From Saccoglossus kowalevskii (Eukaryota; Hemichordata; Enteropneusta; Harrimaniidae), in the NCBI RefSeq assembly GCF_000003605.2, contig NW_003154741.1, positions 94,250-158,249 on the forward strand: a stretch of DNA of 64,000 bases, read 5' to 3'. The notes beneath the pieces were generated by a model, which was not told where the DNA came from, ran no database searches, and was given only the letters and a program-made list of their open reading frames with translations. A program made the position numbers and the translations under genes. Shown here one piece after another: positions 19,101 through 61,484 of the stretch (position 1 is the first letter of the stretch; the number at the start of each line of letters is the position of its first letter).

Positions 19101-22100
19101 CTAAGAATACCTTTATTCATCATTGGCAAACCTGGGAGTTCAAAATCATTAGCAAGAACTATTATTGACAATACGATGCAGTCTCCATCATCAGATTCTA
19201 AGATTTTCCAATATTTGAAGAAGGTATGTGTTTTAGTGTGTTTTATTGGCATCTCACATTCAGTGTATTTTTCGAATAGATAGATCAATATATACATAGA
19301 AAAAATATTTAATTATGATTGAGTGGTGAAACTATGTATGTTCAACTAAAATTGTATTATAAATATCCTTTGTTTTGTAGATTCAGATGTTTGTCTGCCA
19401 GTGTAGCCAGCATTCAAGGCCAGAAGATATCATTGAAACGTTTGACCATGCATCTACTTATCAAAAGGACCAGAACCTTGATGAACATATTGGTGTTGTT
19501 TTACTTGATGAAGTTGGTCTGGCAGAGGACTCGCCCAAAATGCCATTGAAGGTGATATGACGTTTTGTATAATTTAGTCATATTGTTATTGACGCTACTT
19601 GTTTGATTTATCTATTACGGTATATATGTACAACATTTGATGTTTATTTGATTTTAACTACCATGAAATTTGGGCTAGTTGCCCCGAACACAAATATTTA
19701 TTTAGACCTAATGTATTACACATGTATATTTCACGTGCGAGAATAACAAGTTCGGAATATAAGTTAAATATGGCATATACTATGGCATTATGCGATGTTT
19801 ATATATTTCTTGATAAGACACTCCATCCACTTCTTGAGACTGGGTCCATTTGTGACGAGGAAACAATAGAAAACCCTTACAAGAAAGTAGGATTCATCGG
19901 ATTATCAAACTGGCCTCTTGACCCAGCCAAAATGAACAGAGGAATAACTGTAGTTACAGACGTTCCAGACACAAATGAGTTGGTGAAAAGTGCTAGGTAT
20001 GGTAATAAAGATTACATCAGAACGAGCAGTATTAATTGTGTCTATGTAGGTACATTGGTTAGATGTCTGTTGAAATGCTTATTCTTCTACAATAAATTAA
20101 ACTGGAAGGCAATCCGGGAGGACATATCTTCACAAAAAGTGTAAAATACTCGTACTTGGTGAAGAATACTTCCAAAAGTTACTGCTTCTATGAACTCTAT
20201 TTTACAGATGAAAACACCATTGATAGATAAACATACTGATGGAAGTGTAATTGGGAATCAAATTTAATCTTAATTATTAATGGTGATAAAGGGAATAATG
20301 CCACCTTTCTTTTATAGATCTATTTGTGGCTCGTTAGAACATGTTGACGGCTTGCTTGAACCAATGTCGAAAGCATATTCAAAAACATTTGCTGACTGTT
20401 CAAAACGAAGAGAATATTTTGGCTTGCGAGACTTTTACAGGTAAGCAGATACGTGTTCAAGTATTTAAGATCGCATGTAATATATATGGAATATTATGTA
20501 GTTATTATTAGTTATATTAACTATATTTGTTATTACTTATAACAGCCTTATTAAAATGGTTCACACTTTCTGCCAGCAACAAAAAGAAGTGCCATCTTGG
20601 AATGTATTGAAACATTTTGTTTTGCGCAATTTCGATGGTCATGACCAGATTAATCCGGAAGAAATATTCAAAGAGTATTGCGAGAAATACTGTTCTAAAA
20701 ATAGATCGGTAAGCGAGTCTATTTGCCTGTTATATTTCTCAGATGAAATTATTCCAAAATTAGCTACATAATCATTGATTTACTACATAACAGTTTGTAA
20801 TCATCTTATATTTTTTATTAGTATGTAGATACACTTGACTGTACAGTGATGGGACTAGTAAGATCAAATCTTGATAGTTATGGCTCAACAGGGTGAGTGC
20901 TAGTAAATAATTCATTGATTCTTTGATTGATGTATTGATTGATTGGTCGGTGCAGATGGGTGTGTGGCTTGGTGGCTGCTTAGGTCGGTTGCTCGGGTTG
21001 GTAGTAGTTGTGTGAGGATTGACGGGAGTTAGTGTGTTAATAGATTGGTTGAATCATGTGGTTGTTTGGTTGATTGATTGATCAGTTAGTATGTTCCTCT
21101 GTTTGTCAGTCAGTCGGTCCATTCATTAGTTGTTTCTTCTATCATATCTGAAAATCTTGCAGAGAAAACAGGTACCTTCTCTTGATGACAAAAAACAATG
21201 CAGCCTACAAAATAATACGATGCAATAAAATAAATGGTACACCACTATTGAATGAGAGGAAAATATTGGTAATCTATGGCAGTAAGTTTAAAGCAGATCA
21301 AGAATATTCACAGGTAAGACACTATTTGACTGCAGTATAGAGTGAACATGAATATTCCAAAGGGAAATAGACACGCGTTCATTTGTTCTCATAAATTATA
21401 TTTTCATATAACACAGTATTGTAATATACACGGGATAGAACTGTGGTCTTCAATACGGCTATCTCAATTATTCGGGAGGCCCTAGCTGCTGTCGAGAATA
21501 GTTATACAAAAATATTGTGATAGTATACATTTAATAAATCGTTGTTATAGATGGCTCATGTGACGACTATGCTCACAACTAATATATAGCTGTTTTCTTG
21601 TATTATTGTCAGGTTTGTAAAAACGTCATGAGACTGAAGTACGCTATGGAAAATGGGGAAACAGTGGTGCTAATCAAGGCAGAAAATGTATATGAAAGTT
21701 TATATGATGTAATGAATCAGGTAAACTAGAATACATTTTAAATTAAAACGACGATGACTTGCTTGTTAATATAAAAATTATATTATGAGATTCCTAGAAA
21801 ATACGTTTAACCAAATAATTTGGAATTATTAATTCTACCCAAACCTTGATAACTGGGGTCACGTAACAAGTCCGTAATAAGTCAAAGTGAACTGAGAACG
21901 AAAAGAGCATTAATCGTTTCAAGCTAAATTTTATGTCATGGTACATATGCCCATACTACTGCGACAATGTCCGACCACTGAGAATACCAGAAACGTGTAA
22001 AGATTTTTGAAAACATTTTATAGTTTGTAAAGCAAAACAAAAATTCCCACATGTATTGTGTTTGTCACCGGGAGCCAATGCAATTTAATTAAAATTGGTG

Positions 22101-25100
22101 AAACATGATAATTTTTTTCGTCCGAAATACCAGCCTTCGGTGCACTCACTCTGCACTCTTTTTAGTTTAGATATCTTCTCATTGGTGATCCCATACAATG
22201 AACTGTCACAATAATGCAATCTAGATTCCACAAGAGCATGTACAATAATCATTAATAATAATTTTAGACAACAACACAATTTCAAATGACATAGCTTCAA
22301 AACTGCAATGGAATATTATTTATTTTGTAAAATCCCCTATGTTGATTTTCAAGCGAGGTATTGGGGTAAGTTGTGACATCAAAGTCACTGTTGTGAACAA
22401 TTTAGAAAATGATTTTCAGCCAATATGAGTTCAACGATTCTGAATTCCAAGACTACTAGAACATAATGACAATGGTCACCCGAGTATTTTGTTTTAATCT
22501 AAGATGGCTGGCAAATTATGTGACTAATCAGAAGGCCGAAAGCAGATTGATGTAGCTCAGAAATACACCCATTCATTCTCTTTCCCAAAATATCTGCCAC
22601 CACTCACTAACATTTAGTAGCAGAACTGCATTTCTAAAACAAATACTCACAATGCACCACAACTGGATTTATTATTAAACGAGCTGCAATGTTATATGCG
22701 CATAGTAAATGCCCTTTGGCAACGAGTTTGACAAATTCAGTTGAATGAGCTACACCGGGTTGCATGAGAAATCGAAATACAATCTCGATTTCATTTTGCT
22801 GTGTTCCAAGTAAGTATGTTAAATAGACCACGCCTGGGTTTACTTAAACCTATATATCACGCGACCAATCCTAATTTTTAAATCAAATTGCACAAATTCA
22901 TATTATTGTCATGTCACCTTATATAAATTATAGAAAATCGCTCAGCAGTTCTATCAGGCAAACGTTTGAAAATAGAGAAATCAGGGCGATGTCAGTTTGA
23001 TCAATTTACTCTGGCGGCGGAGGTTAAATAAGGCAATTCTTTTTTTCTCAAAAAGTCGAATTTTACAGGGAAGATATCGTGTTATGTTGTTGTAGTTTAA
23101 CTAACAAATAATTAATTTGTTGACGTCTACTCATTGTTGCACAAAATAATCTTCAGTCAGGTAAATACAATACACATTTTAACATCAGCGTTTGATAGTG
23201 ATTTCTCTTGTTTATGTTATCCTATGGTTTATAATACTTGATTTTCAGTACTATTTGAAATCTGGCGAATATTGTTATGTGCGTTTGGGATTAGGAACTC
23301 ATCGATTCAGCTGCAATATCAGCAAAGAATTCAGGTAAGAACACGTTGTATGTATATACTTTTGAATTTATATTTGTGTCAGATATATTTCGATTTTTCT
23401 GTTTGAGTATTGTTAGTTAATATTCTAATTGCAGTGGTTGGTTTGGACTTTTGTGAAATGTTAAATCTCCAATATACAATCACACAGTTTATTTTGTTCT
23501 GTGTGATCGGATGGTACTCACCTTAACAATATACTGACATGTGTCTAATCATTCCACAGATTGATTGTAGTTGCAGAGAAAGATACTGCTTTGAAGAAAT
23601 ATCCAATACCATTAATGAACCGGCTAGAGAAACACTATCTAGCTATGGAAAGCGTTTTGTCAAAGAAGCAAAATATACAGGTGGAACACCACAAGCAGTG
23701 GCTCAACAACTACGTCGAAAGTGGCCAACCGGTATCTCGTATTACAAGGTGCTAAATTCATTACAGATACATGCATTTAAAGTTTCACACTATAATTAAA
23801 ATTTGTATCAGAGCGCCGGATCATGTTTGGTAACTGTTTGCAAGGGATGTTATATTTAATATTATACTAGTATAAACAGATGTTATCAGATGTAAGTAAC
23901 TGTTAAAACATGCATGACATATATATAATATAGTACTTTATCAAGAGATAAGATATTTCGATCATACTTTTAACAGTGCATATTTTCTATTGGAACATTG
24001 TGTTGGGCGGGATGCTAACTGGTGTCACAGATGAATTATATATTGTCTTACTAATGCAACTTCCTCTTAGATTGCATTCAAAACCGCCTTCCTTTGCCGT
24101 ATCCAATGTAGTAGTTGGTCATAATGAAGACACTATTGCTACATTAGTATATGATGTAGACGAAAATAACCAAGTCAATGATGGAAACACCGATGTAGAT
24201 GCTCATGTTAATTCGCAAATCAATCAGGTATATAAATAATTCTGTTATAACAGTCTTTACGTAAGTAGGTCTTCACCATATTTCTGTTTTACCTAAAGAG
24301 TAATACTATTACAGAGTCTTCAATGTTGTCGTTATGAATAATATCTGTAAATCGTGAGAAAACAAATGCATGAACAAAACAAATGCATGAACAAAGGCGA
24401 TCAATATGATCACTGTACTACTTGCGTGCATACTATAAACAATGTTTATAAATACTTATTATTATACAACATTTACTGCATTTACCCGTGATTTAGTAAG
24501 ATAACATACCGAAAAGCCAGCAAAACGTAGACGTGCATGTGAAATCGTTTCGATCACCGATAAGATTCTATTTCAGTCAAAGTCTACATTGTTGTTGCGT
24601 TTCATTTAACAGATGAGTGTATTATTTTTTTCTATATTTTTCCCGTCTAATATGTAGTTTATAAGTGTATGTGTTTATGCGTGTTTGTGTACCTGATTAG
24701 CTATTTTTATCGAAAAGCCTCCATATTAGTTAGTCCACATAGCATATTAGGCAATTTTTGGCATTTTAATTTAGTATGTAGATGTTCTAGGGTAATGCAC
24801 AAACCTGACGTTTTATTGAAACCCATGCATAATAATGACCTATTTGGCAGATTAATTAGCCAATTTATAGCTTTTCCAACAATAACCTACTAATCTAATT
24901 ACTTCGTCGTAGAAATTCATGTATATTATTTAACCACCTTGTATAAATGGGTTCATATGAACTTATTAATATGCAACTAGTGTTACAATGAAGGTATTTG
25001 ACATGAGATAAAACTAACTTATCAAATGACCATATATGGTCATGCAACCTAATTTATATGCATACTTGTAAGTATTAGGCACTTCTGTAAATAATGACAT

Positions 25101-28100
25101 GCAACCAATACTACGATAAAGCCTGTGACTAACATAAAGATGTGACTAACATACCACATGTTGACGTTATGTGAAATTAATTCATATACATAAATGTAAT
25201 GTCTCAAAAAAGGCAAGTCTGTGGTCAGAATAAGACATACTTCAATGATTTTGCATGCAATAAATACAATATTTGCTTTCTGTAAATTAGAGTGTGCGTA
25301 GTAAATACACCATCCTCAATACCCGTTTCAAGTATTTTTGTTTTTAATGTAGGTAAAGACAACAATTATTCACTGCACTACGCCAGACTCGGTAATTCGT
25401 TACGTTACAGCAGCAACAAGTGATGATTATAAGTGGGCAATTGATGAGTATTTCAAGGACAGGCGTCACGCATCACTGTCACATTGTATTAATGCAACGC
25501 TTACAGGTGTTTCCTTTCCACAAGGTCTCCTGTTTTTGGTAGGATACTTTCTTATTAGTAGTAACCAACATGATTTTCATAATTTATCGACAGTAATTTC
25601 TTCGATAGAAGCAAAATTCCCATGCAGCTGACACAACTATTATTTTCAGTAGTGTTCCTCGGTGTGGAATTCCATAATGAAATTGGTTGAACTTATGCCT
25701 CAGACATTTGTAATGTCATACGTTTTTCTTAAAGGTGACTACACACGGAAGATTATTATCTGACAGTTCTTCCGTTAAAACAGAATGCAAGCAGACAATA
25801 AGTGAAATATATATTGTTACTCTTCAACAATTTACATCCGAACAACATTTCAGAAATTTATTAAGGTAAAGACAAAATTCTACGTTCCGTTTTTTCCATT
25901 TGGATTTAAATACCCAGAAAAGAAACAAATATAATGCAAAAAATATTAAATTGTTTGTTTTATTAATAGAGATTTCTATGGACGTACCTGTGATACAGAC
26001 ACACTCTTGATTATACAGTCAGTTGCGGGTCAAAAATTCAACGATATGATATCATTCGCAATGTATCTCATTGAAGACGAATGCAACAAGATTAAATCAA
26101 GCACAAACCATCACCTGGCTTTCGTTGTACAACTGCCTAGAACATCCGACAACCAATTTCAGGGATTTTGGATCTCGCCATGGTATTCGATTCATATTGA
26201 TGACGTAAACACTCCATCTGTGATATATAATATTCAGTCAGTCTGGAGGAGGCCAATGAGTGACGTAATTCAAGACAGTCAGCTGCATAATACGACGGCT
26301 ATATTACGCATGTCAATTCATAATTCAACTGCACGACTCGAAGACCATTGGAAAGATGATACAACTGGAGGACAGCAATATGCTACAAGAAGAATAAAGA
26401 TTCTTATGGAACTACTATCTGGATCAGTGTCACCAGGTGAGACTAAATTATTTGAGGTTTGGAAGTGAATGAATGAATATCGTCTTAATGGTGTACTTTT
26501 TCACCACCACCATTATTTCAACACTCACTAGTCTGGTATTATGAATCAAGAATTTGGAACTATCCTGGGTATTTTATTTTAAATAGACTGTTTATTGTCT
26601 AATAATAAATAATTATTTCTCGTGAGCGGCAAAAGATTATAATTGAAACTTGGCGGTAATTATATTGTTGAAATATCAATATTAGTACATATTATACCTT
26701 AGTGTTCTTTAGACTAATAATCGGATTTTAATTGTTTGAAATTATATTTGTTAGTTTTACACACGACAACTTCAACAAATCTAATGAATTCTCTAGGACA
26801 TCCGGGTTTCCAAAATCTGCCATGTTATGCAGTCCAAAATAATTAAGACACAAACTCAAATCAGTAAACTCATGTTACGAGGATTACAATGTGTATGTGG
26901 GATTTCAGGTTTATCAATTACTATATCTACCATCCACAGGTCAAAGAACATATGTGACAGCCATCAAAATGAAAATATACCCATTGCTGCAAACACGAGA
27001 TAGTGGACTATATGACAATGGAAAACGATGGTGTGAACATATTGCAAACGACCAAGAGCGTTTGAGAGATTCGGGGTCGTTCAGATGTGCTCTTGAGAAT
27101 AGATTGATTGAAGTAGTGGCACCTTTACAGGCTGAGTTGTTATCAATACTAGACAAGAATGGAGGACTCGATTTTATTAGAGAATATCCTCCCGAAAGCT
27201 GGATACATAAATTTGCAATGGATATATTTGAAGATAATCGTATTATTATTTTCAACTACAACGACTTCTTGACTGACGAAGGACGATTTCGAGATAGGGT
27301 CTTATTAATGCATGATTCTTCCCCAAATACCATGATGTGGAAGCTTCCGTTTTCGTGGTTAATATTTAAACAATTAGAAACTTCTTTATCCGCCGTTGAA
27401 ACCTTGACAGGTAAAGTTCTATGTTATTTTGACATTCTTAATAAATTCAGATGCTTCAAAAATTGATCAATGTTACCATATTATTATGTTATTATATTAT
27501 TTCTTAATGGTCATTACAGAAGACGCTTTTGAAATGTGTCACCAGCTTTGGAGAACTGTAGATATCTCCCCGTTAGGAAGTATTATTCAGCAAGCTTTTC
27601 ATAATGGATGTGAGCAAGAATTGTTTAGATTTTATCTTAATGATTTTGCACACCTTGTGTACAAAGGAAGATCCCCAGTTGAGGTTGAGGTAAGAATAAT
27701 GTATCGATATATTTTTCATTCCAACGTAATATTACACATTTGTATTTTCGTCTAAATGCAATTAGAATTTATGTTTATTTATAGATGGCCTGTCAATGTA
27801 TTTCCTCCGCTATTAAAGAGATGAGAAATGATCATACCGAGATGAACGTCACGTTGGCGCATATACACATTGCCTACCACCGTATCAAAGAACGACTGCA
27901 TTGCATGGCTCAGTTGATAAAACTATTTCCAGAAATGCTTCCCACAATATCAAAACGTAATATGGAGGATGAAATGGTAGAATACTTTTTTTTTAATTAA
28001 TTTATTGTCACTGTCATGTTACTATTGTAATATCCAGTACTTATGATTACACCAGTGCATCATGGTATATGTAATTGTAATTCCCATCGCGTACTGTGTT

Positions 28101-31100
28101 GGAAAACGTTATTCGAGGTGTTAGTCTCATATACTAATACTAGCCTACGCACATCATTATCTGTCTTTAAAGTACATTTTGCCAATTTAAATTACAACTG
28201 TGATTGACAGTATTGACTTGCACAATTGTTTAAAATATGCCTTCTCAACATTTCTATAATTGGTGAGAATTGTGCTTAAATCTTACCCAACTACCCATCG
28301 AAATTATGTTTTATCAATATTAATGATTGCACACAACAAGAAATGTAGTACTTGTTTTCAGATTAACAAAAAACGATTTCGTGGACAACTCCGATCAGAT
28401 ATATTACGATGGAGTGCAATCTGCGTACTCAAATCAGATTGCCATTTTATTTTAATGTTATACACCAAAAGCCGCAGTTAAACTAAATTTGATTACAGAG
28501 TTTTGATTTTTTCTCTGTAGATTGCCGATATTTTTGCATTTCAATATGCAGTAAATACTTTGAAACCAACTCCTATAAAGCAATTGAAGGAGGACGCCAA
28601 TTTAAGCAATTGGTTATGTACACTGGTACCTGAGGTTGCTAAGATCAATGACCAGTTACGTGTATTACAACATCTTTTTGGTACACAGAGTACGAGACTA
28701 TATAACCAGTGCAGGTAATTTAAACTTGTATGTACTTGTATATTTTCGTTATATAATATACTCATATATTAAACTACCGTTTAATGCAGTCCTGGTAACC
28801 TGTGTTTGGTCCTACATGTTTATTTATCAGAATTTGCCATGAAACAATGTATCCAGTATTTATATTTATATTTATTGTTAACATTCAATTAAAACTCAAT
28901 CTAATACAGTTCTAAATTCTTACCAGACAAGCCTGGATAAACATTGTAATGGTTCGAATGTTTTTGGACAACATTTCGGAAGATCCCAACACTCTGGAAA
29001 AAAATATTGGGTTTGTTATGAAATACTACACTGTAAGTATTTGAATCAAATGTTACATCAAGAGATCGAAGCATTTATTTAAAATACGTGATATGTCTAC
29101 AAAACAAATGTGTCATCTGCATATATATGTGGTATTACCTATGCTACTCGTATATTTATTTTAATAATAATAATAGCATAAATGCTTTCCTTGTATATTG
29201 TTGGGGAGAAGTCTCAAATGTGCACGGTAGTTTTTTTTAGAAAGCTGTTAAATGCATCCAATCTCGGGTCATTAAATTGCTTTGTCTTTTTTGTAATTTA
29301 ACTCATTAGGCTATTGAGAAGGATAAAATTACAAAAAGGAACCATTTGAAAAAAGTTGAAGGACTACTTAACACATGCAACAAGAATGCAGTCAAGAAGA
29401 TTCTTAGGTGAGATACAAAACTGCGGCAAATTCTTTCAGAACTACTCGTAATTTTCGTCTGGTTCTTTCAGAATCTTCAGAAATTTCCGGTGGTCAATTA
29501 ACTCAATTGTCGGTAGTCTTCCAAATTAACTGGGCATTTAACAATGTGAATACATCAGTGTGGTTTGAGGGCCTTCGGAAACCGACGTGGCTACTCGAAT
29601 ACAAGATGCCTGTGTATACACAGATACCAATGGCGTAGTTTGTTAACAATTACTGTCACGTGACAGTGATTGATAGGGGTTAATCACTGAAAGGAAACGT
29701 TTATTCTCTGCACTCAAATCTGACTACGTTTTCGAAATATTCTTGACACGTATGTATGTATGTAATCATTATAGCTTATATATACAATCAGTATTATAAT
29801 ATTCTTAGTTAAAAATTGTAGAGAAAAGGTTGGGTGTTCAATCTCTTATCAGTGAAATGTGTAGGTTCCTTATATCATCAGAGGTGTTGAATAGACGCTG
29901 ATTAGAGACACTATGGTCGCTTTTTTCGGTCTATTATATAGTGGGAATAGGGGTTTAACAATTGCTGTATTCCACAGAGAAAAAGCATTACCTCATTGTG
30001 CATGTGGACCCCATGATGTCAATGATGGAGTGCGTTTGAGGTGCGGACATGTATGCTGTAGCCGATGTTACGAAACAGACAAAGATACAAAGAGATGTCC
30101 CGTTTCAACTTGCGAAGAAGTGTATAGCACTGGCCTTGAAAAGCAGACGATGCATGAACTCAGGTTTGAAGCTTTATTGTTTTGAATTTATTACGATGAA
30201 TATATCAGTGAGAGACAACTTTTATTAATTTTTATATGAAATGCATATCAATACATTTTAAGATTGTAATTCGTTATTAAAATCGAATACGTTCATTTCA
30301 GTGATCGTCTAAAGACGTACAGATCCTACAGACGACGTCTCACTAACTTCTTTTTGGAGTTCTTGAACATGTTTTACCTTAATCCAGAATATCCATGTAG
30401 TTCAGATAACGACGTTCGTAGCCATTTATTCAGTTACGTATCATTGAAAGAATCGAGTGGAACTAAGTCATTCACGCCGTTTGCTGTAGCAGATACAGAC
30501 CCTTCCCCGGTGGTTAGGTCATATATACTACAATTGCTTTTGAGATACAGGTTAGCAATTTACTGTGCTATATCAAGTAATATCAGAAGAAATCCGATTT
30601 CTAAAGAATAACAGTTAAATAAAAACCAAAATTCAAGTTATTTTTTGAAATATAAATACCTTTTATTTAACCATTATGTTATGCATTATGTAAGCGTGGA
30701 ACCATACACCTTTGTTCTAGATTGACAGATATAGAGGAGCAACTGCAACATTTTATAGAAAGTCACGTGGTTTTGGCACAAGAGTCATATGGGACCAAGT
30801 CTATAATCGAAATATTGGTGATGTACATACAGTGCGTGCAGGTAAGAAAAGTCGTTTTTGAATACATTTAACAATTTATATGACGAATTGAAACATGAAT
30901 ATATCCATGGGCAACATAATCCACTTTATACAGACAGCAATTAATCGTTGCAATTGATTAATTAAATATATACATCTAATGATGAAATTTACTTTACAAT
31001 TATTAAATAATGTATTTACTAACCTCTTATTGACTATTATTGTTGCAGAATTCTTATCAACGAGATATTGATTTCGAAATCAACTTGAACAATGTAAAAT

Positions 31101-34100
31101 CCGACCTGGAAAAAGCTATGGTTTTACTCGACGAAGATGCCATCTCTGCAGAACAAAGACCATCAGTCAAATACCTAAACAACGTTGCTCTCATTAGACA
31201 TGCCATGGTATTTATATCTGAGGCGATTCATTCACAAATTAATACATTGAAATTACATAGTAGTTTATCGGAAGTTATTGCCATAGCTCAACAATTGATA
31301 GAAAAGATGGATTCAATGGGCGCATCAGTGAGCAGTTCGTTTCTCCTGAAAAATATATGTCAGCGATACGGCATGTACTACAAAAACCGTATTCAGGTAT
31401 CCGATCAGTTGAAAGGGATAATTCCACGACATCTTAGAACCACGAATGTGAGTATGTATTTTGGTGCATAATAATTAGTATGCATGTGCATATCGTGTGC
31501 TTAATTATAAAAGTAATATCACGTATAGTAATGATATTCAAAGACGTCTTCAAACAAATATCAACTGTAAAAATGAAACTTACTAGCAGTTTAATATTTT
31601 GTTTCGGTCAGGTACAAAAAAGAAACTTGAATCCATTTGTGCTTGCTGGAAGAACTTACCAATACTTAACTGGGGTATTCACAATGTTCAACCATGACGG
31701 TGATATATCCAAAGCATTTGAACATCTGCAGGTTAGTATATTATAACTTTAAGTATTATTTCACTAATTCCATGTTATTTATAATTTCTGCAACGAAATA
31801 GAAATTCGTCATATTATTTATTTAATAAATTACAGGCACATGAGGCCAAAAGCAATATGGAATATAGTGTACTTCTTGCATTATTTTCTCAAGAAACCGG
31901 AAAAACAAAAAACTTTCAGGTATTGTGTTTATTAGTCGTGTATCAGGTTTTAATTGATATTAAACGTTCTTATATTTCTTGAATGATGTTCACAAGTTTT
32001 TAAATTGAGGATTCAACCTCTGTTGTGATTCCCTTATTATTAACCACTAACTATTTATATGTGTATTTTTGTTTATATTGCATAGTCTCTGGTAGATATG
32101 ATTACCATTTCAACTGAGTTAAAGAAAGAGGTAATCTCCATATATGTTTACACTACATGATAAGTTGTAGAATTGGTATATACTAAATTACGTCAGTAGA
32201 GGGGATTGTATAATACATTATATCACGTATTAAATCAGAATTATTTTTACATTTTTATAGACAATAGAATTCTTCAAAAAAGTGAGCGACGCGCTTTTGG
32301 TTTCCAGCAAAGACTATTATGACCGTAAAGATCTACTGTATGCAGTGATTCATCTATTATCCATCCTGTGTGTTTCGAAAAATTCGGATGTTTTGAAAAC
32401 TCTGTGGTTACTCATGAATTCCCCTAGCTGTATGCAGGTAAGTAAAATTTTCTAACAATATACGAGATTGTTTTGGGCAAAATGTTCAGAGAAATGATAT
32501 TGATACAAATTAGAAACTGTATAGCCACGAATTCGATATCTATTTTTCATTCTCCCAAAGCTAATAATAATAATTACTATACATCTATTGTGAATTCCTT
32601 TTATTAGGAAAGTTTGCTGCCAACTATGCCAGATGATGACCTGTATGATGTTCAGCAAATTATGGGAGAATTACAATGGTATAGTAAGTATTGGAAATTT
32701 GAGGCTGAATTTTACTGAATTTATATTTACAGAGTAGCCGTTATGAACATTGAACATTGAACATGTGATCTAATAGGATTGAATATTCCCGCAGTACGTT
32801 TTATAATTATAGTATTTAATTTATATTTAGGTAATAGTGTGTGATAACACAGCGAGGTCAGTGTTGTGCGAAATGATTTCTTATTCAAGCGCATAACCCT
32901 TTCTGTATCGTGTTGTAATTGGTATTGTAGGGTTCTACACAACTCTAATATACGTGCAGTAGTAGCCTGAAAACATTGACAATGTTGTTAACGTCCAGAT
33001 AGAATCAAAACGTGGAGAAACATTGAAATTTGATGTCGATTAACCAAAGAGATTGCGGTGTTACAATAACAGGCAGCTCACGGTATTATAATGATACACA
33101 TCCCACATGAATTTGATATTCAAATCTACTGGCAAATTCAGTAAATTTTCTGAGAACAACATTAATTTACATTGGCAAATTCATGATAGGAAATGGTATT
33201 GTACACCAATTGTCTTAAATGTGCCATCATACAAGCATATCTTATGTTCAAATACAGAGTGCCGCAATGGTCACCCGTATGCAATTGGAGAATGTGGAAA
33301 GCCATGGGACACGGGGGAGTGTAATATCTGTGGCGTTGTTATAGGAGGGCAGCAGCATGTGTTATTACCCGATAACACAAAGGCAAACGTGTATGTTCGT
33401 TTTGAACGTTATTTCATGTCATTAACAGTATTTACATTTACATGTGCTGAATTAATGCCGATCAATGTAGCACAGCCTTCCAAATAGAAAACTATATGAT
33501 GAAGACAGCGCACATGGTATAGATGATATCAGTGTAAGCAATCTTTACTATTTTGTTGGCAACCAATCAAGTATTTGTGTTTTAATTGTGTTTTATCAGT
33601 GCTAAAAGAAAACTCAATGGTCACATACTAGGAAATGCATCAGAAAGAAAAGAAGAACAGCCAGCACCTCTAAGAGATATGCTTTCTGTCTCCGTTGCGG
33701 TAATTCGTTTTTTAACGCATAGTGCCCTTTTAATTGGAAACAGTTGTAATCCCGAGGTTAGTACTGTCCATATATAAGTATTAACATGTGCAGTCATAAG
33801 CATATAGAAAGGTAAAAATATTAACTACTCTGTCATTGGAAATCCCTTATAAAAATATCGTTCTTAATTGCAGGATGTATCGAATCTGATACACACTGAC
33901 AATCCGATTGTTGGATGCATGGACACCTTTCTTTGGGAGCACCTTGAAAAAGACATGGACCTCTTGGCAACATCTCTCGGAAGAAGTGTAGATGATGCCA
34001 TGCTTTTTGTGCATCTTGTTATCAAGTGTGCTCTCTTGAATTCTGTTGAAAAAAATGGTAACAATTCGGAACTGTGATCAGAATATGTCAGAAATTCAAA

Positions 34101-50055: not shown

Positions 50056-50460
50056 TCATTTTGTGATTTGTCTGTTTGTAATATCTAGGGTGTGGCGCCC
50101 CAATTCACCACGAATAGCAGAAATTGTGGAGTATGGATACACTTTAAGAACCGAACGACAACACTTATTTTGGACTGTTTCTATGTCATCGCCATTGTGA
50201 AAACCCCAAATTTCGCACCCATACATTAAAATTGGTTCAATTTTACAACCGTAAATAGTGCACTCAGTCCTCACGTCTAGATTGCTAAAACGTGCAACGA
50301 TTTGTTTGACAAAAAAACGTGCTTTATTTCTTTTGTTTGCCAAACACTGATGGGCATGGTACCATTTGCCTGTACTTGCAAAAAACATTATAAAAGTAAT
50401 TGTAGTCGGAAATATCTTCGAAATTCTGGTCCTGGAAAAACATTTTTCCTGTTTCTTCAA
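50056..50460 (-). mobile_element. LINE reverse-transcriptase C-terminal fragment
   Basis: 134 open codons on the minus strand with ASTGKWYHAHQCLANKRNKA, then CKIEPILMYGCEIWGFHNGDD and GELGRHTLDI. These are the thumb and C-terminal motifs of Jockey/RTE-like LINEs (PILLYGCEIWG...GELGRYPL-type). It ends about 200 nt before the TATA-like box of the FAM111-like gene, in opposite orientation. Confidence 0.85.
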
Positions 50461-50665
50461 AACCAGACTTTCTAAACACTATAATTTTTGCTTTTGTAAT
50501 ATGTTAATTTTTAATTTCCACTTGGGAATAAATAAATTCTGTAACAAGCGTTGTGCGTCGATGGTTAACTAATATAAATGGCTAAGTCATCAGCAAATAA
50601 CACATAAAAAAGATTAATGAATAACTAATAAATATAACAGATACTAATTTCGATATATGGATTCC

Positions 50666-50673
50666 TATAAAAA
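50666..50673 (+). promoter_or_regulatory. TATA-box candidate of the FAM111-like gene
   Basis: TATAAAAA lies 115 nt before the start codon at 50781, which would place transcription start near 50696-50700 and give a 5' UTR of about 80 nt. The region 50674-50780 has no upstream ATG in frame with the gene. A splice-acceptor-like TTCTTAG sits directly before the ATG, so an upstream non-coding exon is the alternative. Confidence 0.4.
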
Positions 50674-50780
50674 GGATAAAACCACCTGTATATAATACCA
50701 GCGGCCAAATAACCTTAGAAGGAGTATAAGCCTGTTAGTGTCATGATGGTTAACTATCATTTTTATGACTATTCTTAGAT

Positions 50781-53700
50781 ATGCCAAAACAGAAAAGGAA
50801 GCAAACAGAAGAACTGCAACGTAGCAGTTTGACTAAGTGGTTTAAACCATTGGTTCATGATGAAAATGCTACTTGTGTGGAAAGAACGTCAGGAGTCAAG
50901 GTAAGATCATATTTCCAACCAAATTTGTTTTTTGTATCAAAATTTCAATCCAAAATCTCCGCTCGACCTCATATATTTGTTATTTATTATAAACATGACT
51001 GAAGATTGAAGTTATACAATAGACAATTGCATCTTTAAATGGTTATACCGTGGACCACGAAATATCACGATACATGGTTTGCTGAAAGAGTCCTAATGCT
51101 ATCTTAGTAAAGTAGCTCAATTTTGAGGGTAAGCCAGGTTTTAGATTTAAACAATAATGAACGACCCGCCAACCCATAATGGGCGGAAGCTCAACATGTA
51201 TGGAGCACAAAGTGTACTTGAGTTCATTTTTGTATGATGCAAATCCATTGAAAAATTTGGAGTAAAAATCCACAGTGAACTGAACGTTTTCACTGGCCCG
51301 TGAATCTGAATAATTTGAAATGTTTTTCTGGATTTTTTTTCCACAATCTTATATGGAAACTAAGAAAGGAACTAGTTTTAATCCATCAAATAGTATCGTA
51401 TTTAAATCATTTACATTGCGAGTGACTTACGTGTGGTGTGGAATAGCATTGCAGTGATCGCCCGAGCGAACGGCACATAGTGACTACGCCGTATCGGTGT
51501 CCGCCGCGGTCTTACACTCCTGGCTTGCACAACGCTACGCTAGATCGCCGCCGCGAGTGTTTTCAAACCATCAAGGTGGGTGTTATTATCAACTATCCTG
51601 CCTGTGTAATAGCAGTAATAGTTATTTTCAAATTCTACGGGAGGCCGGCGATTTGACGAATACTTTGAAGGCAAACGAAACTTTGGGGCGTAGCGAGCGA
51701 ACGAACATGACCGGAAAGCTAGTGGGTGTTAGCTATCCTAGAAGGAGAACCAACAGTGATTTTAATCTCACTGTATAAATAGACAGTATAATTAATGCAA
51801 ACTGTGCCCGGACTGATACATTTACCGGTAGTCGACGCCGAGGAAATACAAGTCACGTTGGTCTTTCGTCGATCTCGTTTCGCAAATTGTGTAGTACTAC
51901 TCACTACAAAAACAGAACCAATTCATCTCTCTTTACGCGTAGACATACCCCAACTTCGTTTATCGCATTCGCTTGAATAAATTACCTTTGCTTAAGCTCA
52001 CTTCATCGACATGATAAGGCGAACTAATCGGGAGGACAGCGCCATCAGTTGCGGAATCTAGAAACTCGTGTGCTGGATGGAACGCTTCTACCGAACGCGT
52101 TTTAGCGTACAGGGCAAACGGCGATGACCTCACAGAATTGTCTGATTTCGATATTGAAATCCGCTGTTATACGCAATGGACCGTTTTATTTGATGCCGAT
52201 TCAAAGCGTTGGTTATGAACAAGTCGGAAAGCTAATACAGACAGGTCGAATACTAACGACATACCCTATAATTTGGGCCAGCATATGTCTTTCGTGTACA
52301 TAATATTAATTAAGCATTTTTCCGTTCACTGCGAGATCCCGCGTTATGCGTGAAATCGGAATAAACAAGAGCCATGGCGTCGTAGTGGCGCCAAAACATC
52401 GCGTGGAATTACACACATGTAAAATGCTGGGTTTTACACGCTTACTAATGTGCTATATACTTTTGATGACAGTCAATTTTGATGAAGATTGAAATTTCGA
52501 AATTGAACTGTAAAAAAAGAGAAAATCAAACTCAAAATCAAATCGAATCACAGATGTTATGTTTTCGCTTGTCTTGAGCTCTGAGAACTGAGATCTACGG
52601 TACCTTGGCGTTTGTATTAACATCAAAAGTGCAAGATGCGTGACATGATCATTAGTTTGTCTGCACTTCATATTTTTAAATCACTGACGTTTTTTTTTAA
52701 GAATAATTCCAATACGATCGTTAGAAGCGGAAATGGTGCTAAAACTACGAGTCCCGGTAGATCAGAGAGCAGCACTTCGTGTAGGTGCATTTTTATTTAT
52801 TATTATGAACATGAGAATAATGCCATGAATTCATGTCTGTCAATGTTATATTTAAATATTAAAAATTGAACGAATTAAATTCGGAAGTGACAATTCAGGT
52901 TGAAGATATATAATACATTATTTTTATTCATCTTTTAGATCATCGCAGACACTGTCCACTCGAAGCAATACAGGTATGCCAAAAACATAATTGGTGAATG
53001 TATACGAGCTGTACTTTTCACTAATGTGTTTGTATTTATTCTGGATATCGTCTATTATTTATTTCATACGAAAAAAGATCATAAAGTGTATGAAAGTGGT
53101 TATAGTAATTACTTTGCACTTTTTTATTCCATGTATATTCTACTGTGTTTCAACGTGGACCACACAAAGAAGAGGTGAGAATATTTTGCAAACAATGTCT
53201 TATTGATATAATAATCCTATACTCGCTATGCCAGGTTGCTGGAGTCAGGACTGATCCGTCTGGTTGAGTTGTTTCATAATCATATATGGTATTTTCTATT
53301 TCAACAATAAATAAGAATTATATAGTGTAATATGCGAAATAGAAATTTAGAGTGCATTACATTAATATTGACCTTTGTGTCGTACACAATGAACACAAAC
53401 ATTTGCCTATGTTAAGTAATATGTACTTTCATATATTGGTATATTCGTTTCTGAACATTCAATACTTTCAGACGTCATTGTCAACTTTTACTCAAAGCAT
53501 GTCATTTTATTATTTTAAACAAATAAAAATTCATTTCCAGAAACGGTGACCGCGTCTTTGCGAGAAAGACGTCCGCTGACAGTAAGTATTTTAAGTACAT
53601 CGGTCTTCTATTAGTCCCTATCAGAAACAGGGATTTGTGATTTCGGCTCAATGTTTCGTCCACCTGCGTGTCATTTCGAAGATAGTTTAGTTATTCCCTT

Positions 53701-56700
53701 GACCTTGACAGACTGGGGGCTTTTTTGGCCCAAACACAAACATCGACGATTAAACATATCTATGTTTAGGGATTCCTCGACCGATTTCATTAAACGGAGT
53801 ATTGGAACCAGCCATGGTGGGTTGCTGGTGCACGTCGCTTTTTTACAATCTGGCCGACTGACTGATATTTCTGCTTTTTATATGTATTTTACCAATTCCT
53901 TAGGTACCGTTTAGGAATGTTGGGCTGGCTGCCATTTGCTTATTGCTCATTGCGGGTTTAATCTAAAGTTCAGTTTGCAGAATATAAATCGGCAATTGGA
54001 ATTCACATCGGAACATGAATCCGCAATCAGAAATCATTTTTGTCAATTTTCTGTCAGCAAACTTAGCATGGACATACCATACACTTGTTTTGATGTACGC
54101 TAGTTTGCATTGTGATTGTAATAAACAATGATTGACTAATAGACATCATAGTTTTACAATTTTTCGGACATACATTGACAGATTGTCTTTCCTCAGCGAG
54201 TAGTACCTTAGCATGCAATGTTTTATTTCATATTTGCTGGAATTGTTGTTAAATCATTATGCATTGTTCGTGAAAATCACACATCCTAGTAATGTTATGC
54301 TAGTACCATTGTTATGTAACTGATAATTTCCAATGATACATGTACATTATTTTAATGCGAAGCTTTAAACTTGAACTGCAATTGCAACTGCTTACAGCAA
54401 AAAATTATCGTCAAATTTGTAAATTAGTTACTTTGTACCCTACGAAAACGCTAGCCTGTGTTCATTTATTCATCACGCATATATTGTCCTTATATAAATA
54501 TACCAGGGAATCACAACAAAAAATCACATAGAAGAGCATCTGAAAAGGAAGCTGAAGGTCGCATTGATATGGCACATATGAATACTAGCAGTCAAAGAAG
54601 AGTTACAAGACAAACTTCTCTTGTCAGTAAGTAGTGTTAACTATAACTACATGTTGTTAGTCAACCCGTCATTCAAGGAGACCAATTGCTATGGAAAATC
54701 GTCAAGTTTTTACTGGTTAACCAATTATTTTGTGTTATGTGCATTCAAGATCACACACACCAAAAGTATGTCTGAGAAGTTTTAGCTGAGTTGAGTTCGG
54801 ACTTTCTTTCCCATTTTTTACATAACATAACTACTACTAGCACGTTATTCTGCATAATCAATTTATGAGTATTTATGAACGTGACAAGATTTGAGAATCG
54901 ATCACTGACATCAAATTTCTGATAGATCAAAGTACAATATGTTTGTGCTATGAAACTTTGCGATTTCGAGCAAGCAGGGGCGTTGCGTTTTGTACCATAA
55001 ATTCACAATTTGGTCTTTTCTATTAATATATATTGATTATGGAATGCACGGTCTCTTAAAATGACGCGAGTGTTGACTTTGTATCTAGATGGCGGGAGGC
55101 CATTATGTAGGTGATGATCCGCAGGCAGGACATTATTTAAATAATTCCCCATACTGAGACAAGCAGTCAGAGAAAGGTCACGCGCAGTGTTGTAAGCTAC
55201 GCTGGTGTAGAACCCATTACTCAAAGTTGTATTCATCTGTCGACACTGAGAGTATGGAATCAAACTAAAACTCTTGTCAACAACTTTTAAACCGTGTGCA
55301 TGAATATAATAGGATATATTACTGTTTTATAAGTGTTTACAGTGTGAAAATGTTCCTAAGAATCTATAAGATGTAGTTTGGATGGATACATTAATCTCCA
55401 TCTATATATTATTCCAGGTGATCGGCATGAAGAGGCACCAGCTACAGAAAGTGCATCTAAAGTGGACTTGGATCTGAAAAGGTATTAACAATAATAATCA
55501 GTGAAATATCTTAAATTTTATAATGTGTCAAACGTCCATGTCTGAATAGTCTTAAAAATACTAGTGTATATGCTTGCTGGCCCGTACATTTGTTCGCATC
55601 ATTTAGTCAGTGATAAATAACGTGTTAATGTGGCATTAACTTTGACTAGTTTCCTTTATTAGCTTAGGGAACACAATTTATAAGACGTGCGTATTAAACT
55701 ATCTAGATAAGACGTGATCTTCAATTGTACGCTTCAATTGTTTGCCTAATTTGCATATGATAAATAAATGTTAATTATAACATATCTTTCATTACAGAAC
55801 AAAGAAAAACACATTAACGTTTCACTTGAAAATAGGAAAGTGCAAGGAACTAAAAAAACACATATTGGAATTTGACGAACACGATACTATTCTTGATGTA
55901 ATTGAGCGTTTTCTCGACAAAGACAAATACAAATACAAATCAATCATCAATAATTTGTTTCCGGAAGTTAACATTAGTGAACAACGCAACATAGAAAGAT
56001 ATATTCCTAATTTTGGCATGCCTGCGAAGTTAGTAGCAGGGGAGACTAGTCGTCATTGAATAAAAGGTTCAACCCAAAGTAACAAAGTACAGAAGACAGC
56101 TCGAACAAGGAGATAGCTATCTCGGTATATTTTATGTCAGTTATGTTGAGAAACATAAACCGAACAAAAAGGTTACAATTTTGAATCATTGTCATTACAA
56201 AAATCAACTTTTAGGTGTCATGGTCATTCAGGACGATACTCTGTCTGATGCCTTAATACGCGACAGACGTTTTAATGAAGAAATTAGAAAATGTGAACTT
56301 AGAGAAACTTCAGCTGGGGAAAATAATGTTAGCTTAGACCAACAGGCTTCAAGCTATATTGGTAAAATATTTTCTGTCATTTGGTTCGAGGCAAAACAAG
56401 GCGGCTCTAGTAGAATCGCCTCAGTGTCTCAAGGGATACCACAGCAAATCGATCGATCTGTAGACGCCACTTTAATTTTGTCGAAACTTGGTGAAATTGA
56501 AGACACCGCTAAAGAAGTTCGTAAGGTATTGCAACAGACTAAACCCAAGGCAACTGCAAATAATGTAAGAAATCGGTTGTCAAATTTATTCAGTTCAACT
56601 TTCACAGGCATTCCTTTAAATGTCTTGAATCATCTACAGAAATCAGTAGGTATTATAAAGTGGCCTCATAGTAAGAATGGCACTGCTTTCAGATTGGGCT

Positions 56701-57410
56701 CTAAGTACATCATAACTAATTACCATGTAGTTAGATTGATATACGACGCAATGAGGGCAAATCCATTTAGACCAGATGATGTAACTATTAGTTTTAATTT
56801 TGTTAGTACACAACACAGCTTAACAAATTATACATTGCGACACGATAGAATGAAATTCCATATGCCTTTCTTCAGTGAAATCGAAGACCTTGACTATGCA
56901 ATTTTAGAATTAGACATTGACGAAGATATGGAAATTGATGTGCAAGACGGCAATGGTATATCTGGCCAAAATGAAGACCAACAAATTCCAGCATCGTTAA
57001 CTGGTAATCTAGGTCGAATTCCCATTGAGCCGTCGGCTATAAATATATTAGGCCATCCTCAGGGCCAAGCAATGCTTTTAGATGCTCGGTGTACACTTAA
57101 AATTACCACACTTTGTGAATTCCCTGTGTATTATCAGAAAAGCTTTTCACTGGACGATATCATGGTTTCTTCCGATACTAGACGTATAAATTATGAAACG
57201 TGTCTGCTTCACGGAGCTTCAGGGTCCCCAGTTTTCACAAATGAAGGAATCATTATTGCTCTTCACACTCGCGGCTTTCCACCAACTGGAACACACAACA
57301 ACTCCGTCTTTGAACAAGGGGTTGCTATATTCGAAATTATGAAACATGCGAAAAATCTAGCTACCAAACAAGATACCCTTGATATTTGGAAAGATTTATT
57401 TGAAAATTGA
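50781..57410 (+). CDS. FAM111-like serine protease (PIP box, ubiquitin-like domain, trypsin-like domain)
   Basis: Exons: 50781-50900, 52939-52973, 53541-53581, 54507-54626, 55418-55481, 55798 to about 56028, and about 56093 to the TGA at 57408-57410. The first five junctions keep one open frame. N-terminus: RSSLTKWFKP (residues 14-23) at the place of the FAM111A PCNA-interacting motif. Then a basic linker. A ubiquitin-like domain starts with TLTFHLKIGK and ends with NFGMPAK. A second such region (DDTLSDALIRDRRF) follows, then the protease domain: His 56724-56726 in ITNYHVV, Asp 56892-56894 in EDLDYAIL, Ser 57219-57221 in HGASGSPVF, matching the FAM111A triad. Human FAM111A is a nuclear PCNA-linked protease that removes DNA-protein crosslinks and restricts some viruses. 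The frame problem at 56029-56092 is described separately; if it is a real lesion this is a pseudogene. Confidence 0.82.
50901..52938 (+). other. First intron of the FAM111-like gene, with a CpG-richer patch
   Basis: 2-kb intron between the PIP-box exon and the second exon. The part 51420-52420 has many CG dinucleotides (CCGCCGCGAG, GTAGCGAGCGAACG), unlike the rest of the window. It could be a promoter-like region or an old repeat. A tempting small exon at 52702-52780 was tested and rejected on phase. Confidence 0.5.
52974..55417 (+). other. Introns 2-4 of the FAM111-like gene
   Basis: Introns 52974-53540, 53582-54506 and 54627-55417 separate the tiny linker exons. They are AT-rich. The minus frame 55003-55263 is uninterrupted for 86 codons but shows no family motif. 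Nothing else recognised. Confidence 0.6.
56029..56092 (+). other. Frame break in the FAM111-like gene: very short intron or two lesions
   Basis: The ubiquitin-like exon (frame of 55799) would stop at TGA 56057-56059, whereas the downstream part is open in another frame from 56064 to 57410. A GT-AG intron 56029-56092 (64 nt, GTTAGT to TACAG) restores the frame; 56033-56099 (67 nt) also does. Against splicing: the text across the gap still resembles FAM111A. AKLVAGE in one frame is followed by LVVIE in the other, then TAA 56061-56063. That would fit one extra base in the G run 56039-56042 plus a stop. The shortest intron of the neighbouring RNF213-like gene is 84 nt. Confidence 0.6.
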
Positions 57411-60400
57411 TTACGTTATAGCAATGCTAACCATACAACGACCAGCAAAAAATCATACTTGATTCAAGTAAATTGTCAATATGTCATCACAGGGACATAA
57501 AGCATGTCCACAATAACGTGCTCGCATAAGTGTGTTGAGTAGATATTTTGTTTTCTTCAAGAACTCCCCTGTTAACATTTTACTTACGATAATATATTTA
57601 GAGTGTTTTGAATTAATGTTTACCTGCAATTGTATTTCAATTAAAAATGATGAATATGTTAGTCGAGTTTGTAAAGTAATGTTCAATGGATCACTGAATG
57701 TGTCTGAACTGCAAGTTAGAAAACTCATTCTTTTGTCTATTTGTGTTTAACTGTATAGTATCCGTTACTCCAGTTCGATGATATATGGTATGTTAAACCT
57801 CGCGTGTTGCTTCAAAATGACTATTACGAGTTCAAGTTTCCCAGTTATCAATAATATTCAAATAAATGTTAGTACATTTGAATGGAGTGGTTTTGTTATA
57901 CTAGAATCTTGGAACCGTGCAATATCTGATGACCCAAATGGGCGTGATTATTGCTTACTCATCTATCTTGGCGGATGCAAGTTGAAACCCCACTACCTGG
58001 AATACGTTTCACTATACTCCGTAAAAAAAACAATTGAGGCCTTTAGCTTTTGTATATCTCAAATAATTCTCAATAGCTAACTTGCTAAATGCATGGACGA
58101 AACTAAACGAAATGAATGATATAAATTGAATTTGTATTTCACAGTAACATAAGGAAATTAAATAAATACTAATGTACAGAAATACATATACAAAGTATTA
58201 TGGGGGGTCAAATGCATACATTTGTGTGAAATATATACGTCCTAAGACTGGCCAGACGCTGTATTTTTCGTTCCACTCGTCCACCTTTTGTTCAAAATCT
58301 GTGTCTTAATTGATCCATTTTCCTGATTTGCAGCATGGAACGTACACACGATTGTCGTTCTTAAAATTGTGGCGCTTCGTTCTAATTATATACTCACCAT
58401 GTCGTTGCAGCTGTTCAGAATGCATGAGTGATTATACTAGGAGGAATAAATGGACAATAGTAAGAGAAAGTCAACCAATTCTGTTCGCTTTCTTGTGGGT
58501 AACCTTTATTATAGCAAGTGAAGTTTGGCGGGGTTGACTTACACAATATTAGTGAAAGGCACAATTGTGCAAAGTGAAGCAAAATAGTGACCTGCAAAGA
58601 GCTTTTTTTCGCTACATTTTTATGTAAAATTTCAATTTTATGATCTGAAAAATATTTATTTAATTTATTTATATTTTGTATTCACATTTTCCCTAATTAT
58701 TTGGTGCTTATCAACGTTGATCTGTTTCTTTACATACCATTAACAGTAGACTCTTCTCGCCCTCTCCTGTTATTTTCAACTTCACATCCATATATTATAA
58801 TTATCAGTTATTCTGAATATGGTTATGAATATTGTACATTTTGGATGTAAAAACAGCTTTCGAGTTTTATATTATATGAAAAATAACATTTATACCAAGG
58901 TACCAAGAGGAAATAAATATCACGACTTATTGATGAACAGACGAATTGTTTAAATATTACAAAACTATGTTATATTTTGGACTAAGATGATAACTTATGT
59001 TGGAAAAACAATTTTCTATTTACTCGCTGAATTAGAGAATAATCCCGTTGGTACACAGATAATTCGCTACGATTTGCGACGGAGTAAATTACAGTTTACT
59101 TCCACCATCCAGAAAGGATATTTATTTTTATTTATATTACGAATGTTGATTATGAACATTCACGAGGTATATAACGCTGACCGACCAATTCGGTGTCATT
59201 CTATCTGAGCGTATTCTTCTATATTTACAATTATCTACATGTCACAAGGTAAATTATACGGTGAAGTACTATGGTGTGGTAGAATCGCCAAACGTAATAC
59301 AGGAATGCAATGGCCAAAATAAAGTACAGTCACCGACATTGTGGTTGGGTTCTTTACCCCAAAATACACAATATAAATAATGTATAGATATATTGATATA
59401 TAATCATACACAGTAATGCCAGGGTAGAACTTTGGGATAAAACAGGCACATCCGTAACAAAAATGAACGCACTTCAAGAAACACAAGTATATGTGGTCAA
59501 CGAAATATTTAATATAGAATAATCTCAAATAATATTTGTGATGCAAATCATCAAGTTTGACCACGAATAATTAAAGCAACAATTACATTATCATTTAAAC
59601 GCAAATAACCATGGTTAATGCCCTAAACATAATCAGTACATAACCGGAAAATACAAGTAAATAACGTTTCACGCTGTCACTTGTAGACCGTTAACATCAA
59701 TCACTGTACCATAACGACGAACGCAGTAACGTAGAAATAACAATGTAACGTCAGAGGCTACTTAGCTTTTGTGGTTGACTCAGTTCCATGCACAGTGTTC
59801 GTTGAATCACACGATTTAATGTCTTGATGGTGGTTTGACAATCTACTAGGAATTTTGTCTCGATGACGGTTTGACAAACAAGTTGCGGCACGGCTATGGA
59901 GACTCGGCGACTTCATTATGTAAAATACTATAGTTGGTAGAAGCGCATGTAGTTGACCATGGGGTTTCCAACCCAAAGTATCAGGAACTGGCAACAAACT
60001 TCTCATGATGTTAACTGTGACAGACAGCAGGGAGAAGTGATCCCTTTGTTCCACGCCATGTGACAAGTTAATTTATTCAGGAAGGTTTCATTTTCGGATG
60101 GGTTAGTCACACCCATTAAAGTGTCAAATACAGCGCCATCTCTGGCCAAACTAATTAAACTTAATTAAACTGTAAAAATGTACACTCCAACAATTAAAGT
60201 TAAGTTACTGAGACTTTGTGACTTTGTGACACTACATATATACACATATACCCTAAAATGCGGTTTAAAATAATGAAACGAAAATACAAAAAAAGAATAA
60301 TCATTTTTAGTCACTGATCACATCTGTTCTGTCTGATTGGCTCTTGAATATGCTAGTTGTTTACGTGTCGATATATCGTGGTAATCTTAACTATTGAGGA

Positions 60401-61484
60401 AACTCCCAGAGCGCAGTGCACAGTGAAAATCGCGCCCTCTTGTGTTGAAGAGGTTTTTTTGACGTAGATGTATGCGACCAATAATCAAGCTCCGAGTTCG
60501 AAACGCTGGAATGTCTACAAAAATAATTGTACGAGACACTTTGAATGCTTTTAAAGTGGTTTAACGCAAATTTAAAAACATTAAATATGAAATAAACTAA
60601 TACATGGATATTTGTGTTGTCTTTCTATTTCATAGTCATTACAAACACAGCTTGCAGGTGTTCAGATCACTAGTGTTAAAAATTAAACGTGATGGCACAA
60701 GATGGCAATATAATTGCTCCAGTGTGTTACAGAAAACGATCGTAAATTCATTAACATGTAAACCATGTTTACGCTGCATTTCGGCCCCTGGTTATGCCAG
60801 CTTGTATTCCCTTAGTCTTTGTGCACTGGTGCATACACGTAATTGGTTAGAGCTGTATGGCGCCCTCACTGTTGGTGGTGTCAATTACTTTTGTTGGCTG
60901 CATACCGACCTCTTTCGCGGGAACCTTTGTTGTGAGTGTGATGCAGTGTGACTATTGTCGCACCTGTGCTACTGTGCGCTATACTCTTTTCTTGGATATG
61001 TGATTGACTAGAGGTTGATTTGGAGAGTAGTTTTTATGACATTTTTATGAGCATTACTTGTGTTGTAATTTACTGTGTATTACGGAACGAGGTAGTTGTT
61101 TTTAGTGTGTACAGGGCTGAGAGCGAAAGGGCTCTCTCTCTCCTGGCGCCGAGCGGTTAACCTCACTGTGTACATTAACAGCAAGCTATAATTCTTTGAA
61201 GAAAAGTGAAAGAAGTGGGAAGCGGAACGTGGAACACTGTTGTTATGGTGCTTCGTTGGACGGCTAGACCAACCCGTGACCAAACTTTTGTCGCAGCTGG
61301 TAGGTGAACTATTACTGTTTGGAAAGGGGCCCAAAGCATCTTTGATTGCAATCGAACGTTGAACAATTATCACATGAACTTTTATCGCGTCAAAACTTTG
61401 TGATCTATATCATTGTAGCTTTTTGTGGGTAGTGAGAGCACTTTTTCCCGTCTTACGTAGTTTTTATGTGATTTTATTTTTCCA
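57411..61484. other. AT-rich region downstream of the FAM111-like gene
   Basis: Contains the likely 3' UTR (to about 57.9 or 58.2 kb) and then plain AT-rich DNA. Frames such as 57778-58080, 59235-59564 (minus), 59758-60066 (minus) and 60604-60951 have no recognisable domain, splice context or family similarity. Base composition begins to rise in GC at about 60.8 kb. Confidence 0.6.
57861..57866 (+). terminator. Poly(A) signal candidate (AATAAA) of the FAM111-like gene
   Basis: First AATAAA after the stop codon, 451 nt downstream. A second AATAAA at 58161-58166 is the alternative. The frames seen between 57450 and 58080 probably are 3' UTR chance frames. Confidence 0.4.

Follow-up and report, generated by a model that had tools for sequence, protein, structure and literature searches.

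A FAM111-family serine protease gene of an acorn worm: a probable broken duplicate and its intact six-exon paralog

Human FAM111A (PDB 8S9K, 8S9L) is the best PDB match of the gene reported here. The relevant sections of the literature give its first coding exon as 81 coding bases in phase 0 (PMC11762410), describe a basic segment lying between the initial strands of its second ubiquitin-like domain (UBL2; PMC10551639) and identify Phe334 as the P1 residue of autocleavage (PMC10920703). The passages of a 2022 review that deal with the history of the family report FAM111 proteins without UBLs from a soft coral and a lancelet, place the origin of the UBLs between marine invertebrates and vertebrates, and have the PIP box arise in mammals once the marsupials had branched off (PMC9798293). 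In the portions of a 2026 paper that bear on the point, the abstract restricts both PIP and UBL to mammals, whereas in section 2.3 it is the canonical PIP box alone that is confined to mammals (PMC13029412); the canonical consensus, as quoted in a further source on the motif, is Qxxhxxaa (PMC9570017). Among the matches listed in a search of open-licence papers, no title or abstract opening contained a hemichordate FAM111. Invertebrate FAM111-like genes also figure in automatic database annotations.

The window analysed here, 64,000 nucleotides of the genome of Saccoglossus kowalevskii, carries such a gene on its + strand (Table 1), and the invertebrate host given in the preliminary description is borne out, the animal being an acorn worm. 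We consider it probable that this gene belongs to the FAM111 family of serine proteases and is a broken duplicate, and that an intact six-exon paralog of about 665 residues lies on a different contig. Two marine invertebrate proteins described as FAM111A-like, from Paramuricea clavata and Branchiostoma belcheri, likewise have a Trypsin_2 domain with an intact triad but are reported, in the same passages of the review, without UBLs or a PIP box, and are set apart from the acorn-worm gene by description (PMC9798293). FAM111B, likened to it by description only, shares the combination of UBLs and protease and is also a duplication-derived paralog, but it is a mammalian duplicate that lacks the PIP box (PMC9798293, in the passages concerned).

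Table 1. Parts of the FAM111-family gene copy in the window
Feature	Positions	Strand	Remarks
Exon 1	50781..50900	+	40 codons, phase-0 donor GTAAGA; ATG, basic stretch, PIP-like motif; counterpart in copies B and C
PIP-like LTKWF, residues 17-21	50829..50843	+	LTKWL in copies B and C
Exon 2	52939..52973	+	35 nt; 32 nt in copy B, 47 nt in copy C
Exon 3	53541..53581	+	41 nt
Exon 4	54507..54626	+	120 nt; 120 nt in copy B, 102 nt in copy C
Exon 5	55418..55481	+	64 nt
Exon 6 start, UBL1 region	55798..56059	+	Truncated by frame break; homology to human weak by itself
Lesions	56044..56063	+	2-base deletion relative to copies B and C, then TAA at 56061-56063 in the continuing frame
Exon 6 remainder	56064..57410	+	Open frame of 448 codons running through UBL2, hinge and protease to the stop
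UBL2 region, approximate limits	56124..56384	+	From alignment to human FAM111A
Phe aligned with human Phe334 (autocleavage P1)	56601..56603	+	
Catalytic His codon	56724..56726	+	
Catalytic Asp codon	56892..56894	+	
Catalytic Ser codon	57225..57227	+	In GASGSPVF

Searching the genome (572 Mb, 4830 contigs) revealed two further copies, B and C, both on contig C4619, while the window lies on contig C4409. With copy C as the query, the same three loci were recovered together with one chance-level match (E 0.757), and these counts are lower bounds, so that there are at least three loci. Copy C is intact, with six exons, consistent phases and 665 residues, its last exon being a single open frame of 546 codons; copy B carries frame breaks of its own. 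Compared with 70 kb of C4619, of which 25,714 of 70,000 bases are N so that the flanks were compared in part, the window shows DNA similarity longer than 150 bases at 50632-60573; outside that interval there are two short matches, at about 36.4 kb and 41.9 kb. On this pattern the copies are more likely dispersed and tandem duplicates than alleles of a single locus. Three long stretches of N, either gaps or withheld sequence, surround and separate copies B and C on C4619 (26001-35247, 45765-51691 and 85461-96000). In exon 1, B and C are the more similar pair, and over the 3' half of exon 6 the window copy and B are; the copies look like mosaics, perhaps produced by gene conversion.

The small front exons followed by one large last exon, noticed from the window alone, recur as a six-exon layout in all three copies, with exons 2-6 starting after AG and exons 1-5 stopping before GT. 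In B and C the boundaries were placed using motifs from the window copy. An in-frame stop at 50766 lies upstream of the ATG of exon 1, the peptide of which (50781-50900) reads MPKQKRKQ...SSLTKWFKP. Given that splice phases are consistent in all three copies, where the lengths of exons 1-5 vary by multiples of three only, that exons are less diverged than introns (5.5, 8.2 and 8.6% against 13.4, 15.2 and 17.9% in a three-way alignment, in which exon 1 is unaligned so that these figures describe the part from 52900 on), and that dN/dS stays below 1 (0.28-0.76 in ten comparisons), the comparison of the copies supports the prediction that the PIP-like exon and the protease exon are joined in one spliced gene. 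A point against is the dN/dS of exons 1-5 by themselves, which lies at just 0.55-0.67. A stretch of 79 bases at 52702-52780 is conserved in the three copies, has AG/GT flanks and is open in two frames. It was excluded from the gene model since its length breaks the phase with the neighbouring exons, the alignment being judged by eye, and it is possibly an alternative exon or belongs to another isoform.

ORF 56064-57410 matches Pfam Trypsin_2 (E 8.6e-9). In the PDB its two best matches, at E 2.7e-11 and 4e-11, are entries for the protease of human FAM111A; FAM111A is also the best PDB match for copy C. In a direct comparison, the protease part of copy C scored 208 against human FAM111A, where the maximum of 500 shuffles was 60, and the window ORF is 29% identical to the human protein. 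Residues 335-611 of the human sequence used equal PDB 8S9K except for the engineered Ser541Ala, and 18 of 18 numbered residues tested stand at their expected places. The last exon, which ends at 57410, carries the motifs ITNYHVV, LDYAIL and GASGSPVF, and the His-Asp-Ser triad codons within them are intact in the window copy, just as the preliminary description had read them; the same triad contexts occur in human FAM111A. A Phe of the window copy aligns with Phe334, at the autocleavage place. The two proteins differ in the dimer helix region, which is 8 residues shorter in the acorn worm in the alignment, and in Val347, Val351 and Phe538, which are not kept. The gene plans correspond in that the first coding exon, in phase 0, contains the start codon together with a PIP-type motif, and most of the protein comes from one large exon at the end, but the acorn-worm gene has four extra small exons.

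Ubiquitin-like parts had been proposed from the sequence as folds; homology to human FAM111A stood, strongly for UBL2, whereas UBL1 is weak alone and no fold was recovered. The N-terminal part of copy C scores 94 against the human protein (best of 500 shuffles, 67) over a span from the second half of UBL1 to most of UBL2, and UBL2 alone scores 82 (maximum of 49 in 500 shuffles). For UBL1 alone, the local score was reached by 84 of 500 shuffles and the end-to-end score by 25 of 1000 and 10 of 1000 with two matrices. A search of copy C against the PDB at E up to 5 matched no solved UBL, Pfam at E up to 0.1 gave no UBL family for it, and an AlphaFold prediction of the UBL2 stretch of the window alone, made without relatives, had a mean pLDDT of 38.2 and was discarded. 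The sequence KHKPN...HYKNQ occupies the place of the basic stretch of human UBL2. Two UBL-type regions are supported by homology to human FAM111A, UBL2 strongly and UBL1 weakly when taken alone.

Three other readings were weighed. That the gene encodes an HtrA/Deg-type or other trypsin-like protease merely resembling FAM111 is very improbable: such a protease shares the Trypsin_2 profile, and Deg8, which has the same trypsin-like fold, is the third and last PDB match of the window ORF at E up to 1 (E 0.02), but the FAM111A match is better by nine orders of magnitude, the UBL2 region matches human FAM111A, and in copy C Pfam at E up to 0.1 finds nothing but Trypsin_2, with no PDZ domain after the protease. 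The sole NCBIfam match is far under its cut-off (15 bits against 125), and across Pfam, NCBIfam and PDB no better similarity to another protease family was found. Judged by sequence comparison, the assignment to the FAM111 family is right. The preliminary description had, on the other hand, presented one readable gene, and this does not hold for the window: the UBL1-frame ORF (55781-56059) stops at a TGA, the protease ORF lies in a different frame, and a translation begun in exon 1 runs no further than residue 213. Aligned with B and C, the window copy is short of 2 bases and has TAA in place of their Lys codon, both between UBL1 and UBL2. The window match found with copy C contains one TAA and one TGA, which we read as the lesion at 56061-56063 and the normal end at 57408-57410, respectively. 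We think it unlikely that the window copy works and that the frame break is an error of sequencing or assembly; the remainder of the last exon is open with a dN/dS of 0.47 against copy C, and the missing two bases fall where B has CTCT, a slip-prone site, but this would require an error at each of two separate lesions, and the other frame breaks of B indicate that decay is common in these copies. As it stands, the window copy, a broken duplicate in our reading, is unable to encode the full protein and could give at most a 213-residue N-terminal fragment or, via an internal start, a protease piece.

The reading of the exon-1 motif is evenly balanced. The earlier claim of a PIP box holds for the presence of LTKWF at its place near the N-terminus and fails for the canonical form: in RSSLTKWF, positions 4, 7 and 8 fit the PIP consensus and position 1 is R, not Q, and copies B and C have LTKWL in an S-rich context, again without Q at position 1. 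"PIP box" is here a name for a non-canonical motif only. We give an even chance to the view that the motif is not a PCNA-binding site and that the exon-1 peptide has another role. Pointing that way, LTKWL occurs both in the intact copy C and in copy B, none of the three copies has Q at position 1, and the similarity of the exon-1 peptide to the human N-terminus is not significant, its score being reached by 377 of 2000 shuffles for the window copy, 1122 of 2000 for C and 1365 of 2000 for B. Against it, the pattern [ILMV]xx[FYW][FYW] arises in just 153 of 20000 shuffles of the window exon peptide (the full Q pattern is absent; a pattern loosened to admit LTKWL arises in 215 and 262 of 20000 for copies B and C, respectively), and the motif sits in a phase-0 first coding exon like the human PIP box. 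The first coding exon of human FAM111A ends just past the PIP box, and the human motif is likewise without Q and has YF where the acorn-worm copies have WF or WL. This shared placement is suggestive but falls short of proof.

Scans of other collections with a sequence pattern yielded little. In two viral-contig scans, 2 and 530 stretches fitted the pattern and none encoded a relative, and in a collection of genome contigs 1 of 188 fitting stretches did so. That one, on an Anaerolineae contig (L013, 2001-2606), encodes a protease 23% identical to the protease part of the query (E 5e-8 among candidates), possibly a distant bacterial relative.

Elsewhere in the window, an RNF213-like gene lies upstream on the + strand at about 16156-33487; its AAA-type ORF 16156-16536 matches RNF213 in the PDB (E 6.5e-21), and an RZ zinc finger falls at 33095-33487 (E 1.3e-16). 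For seven ORFs from this part of the window, no counterpart turned up in the compared, partly N, stretch of C4619. On the - strand, ORF 50056-50478 is presumably the tail of a LINE reverse transcriptase, which it resembles (ILMYGCEIWG...), and it has no Pfam family above cut-off; at about 8885-12181, also on the - strand, overlapping ORFs in a G+C richer segment (0.42-0.47) resemble a retroelement, and two of them had no Pfam match. CpG observed/expected for the window is 0.87, not strongly depleted.

The mitochondrial contig C4830 (17,037 bases), assumed to come from the same animal, has the code and gene order published for Saccoglossus kowalevskii, which makes Saccoglossus the most likely host on this evidence. 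Its COX1 match contains seven TGA codons. COX1 and ND6 are encoded on the other strand and ND2 stands before ND1, genes apart from COX1 and CYTB being named by eye. The counted genes contain no AGG and 8 AGA codons. In a comparison by eye with the best PDB chains (7o37), Ile, Val or Leu stands opposite 8 of 9 aligned ATA codons of COX1, Lys opposite 5 of 6 AAA codons of COX1 and CYTB, and Ser opposite the single AGA of CYTB. For S. kowalevskii, AUA=Ile, AAA=Lys, AGA=Ser and a lack of AGG are described, together with an inversion of COX1 and a transposition of ND1 or ND2 (PMC3121625). The same source has AUA=Met in vertebrates, lancelets and tunicates and AAA=Asn in echinoderms, and the ATA change is reported to be missing from Xenoturbella (PMC2697986).

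By analogy with vertebrate FAM111A, we propose how the product of the intact paralog may act. Its anatomy starts with a basic N-terminal exon that carries the PIP-like peptide; next come a linker of low-complexity appearance and two regions of UBL type, and a trypsin-fold protease with an intact triad forms the C-terminus. Such a protease would be nuclear and under the control of its N-terminal half, which would bring it to sites of replication or of viral replication. Single-stranded DNA is a possible ligand of UBL2 and its basic loop, and the targets of cleavage would be obstructing proteins or, after a Phe, the protease itself. Nuclear location and the roles in replication and against viruses are carried over from the vertebrate protein throughout, and the anatomy is what the acorn-worm copies themselves provide.

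On homology, the hemichordate gene contradicts the published dating of the UBLs. The published dating of the PIP box is only challenged by it, because the window copy reads RSSLTKWF, without Q, and the other copies have WL. A hemichordate FAM111 with UBL-type sequence would mean that the pairing of UBL and protease predates the chordates, unless it was gained separately. More tentatively, and in our view possible rather than probable, the full FAM111A plan, from a first exon of PIP type through both UBLs to the protease, may already have been present in the deuterostome ancestor. If so, the proteins of lancelet, marsupials and others that are reported without PIP box or UBLs would have lost them or would stem from incomplete gene models, instead of documenting a late invention. 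Already before vertebrates, FAM111 would then have served as a protease linked to PCNA, acting at replication forks or against viruses. Duplication with repeated decay, moreover, would fit a gene under changing selection, for example an antiviral factor.
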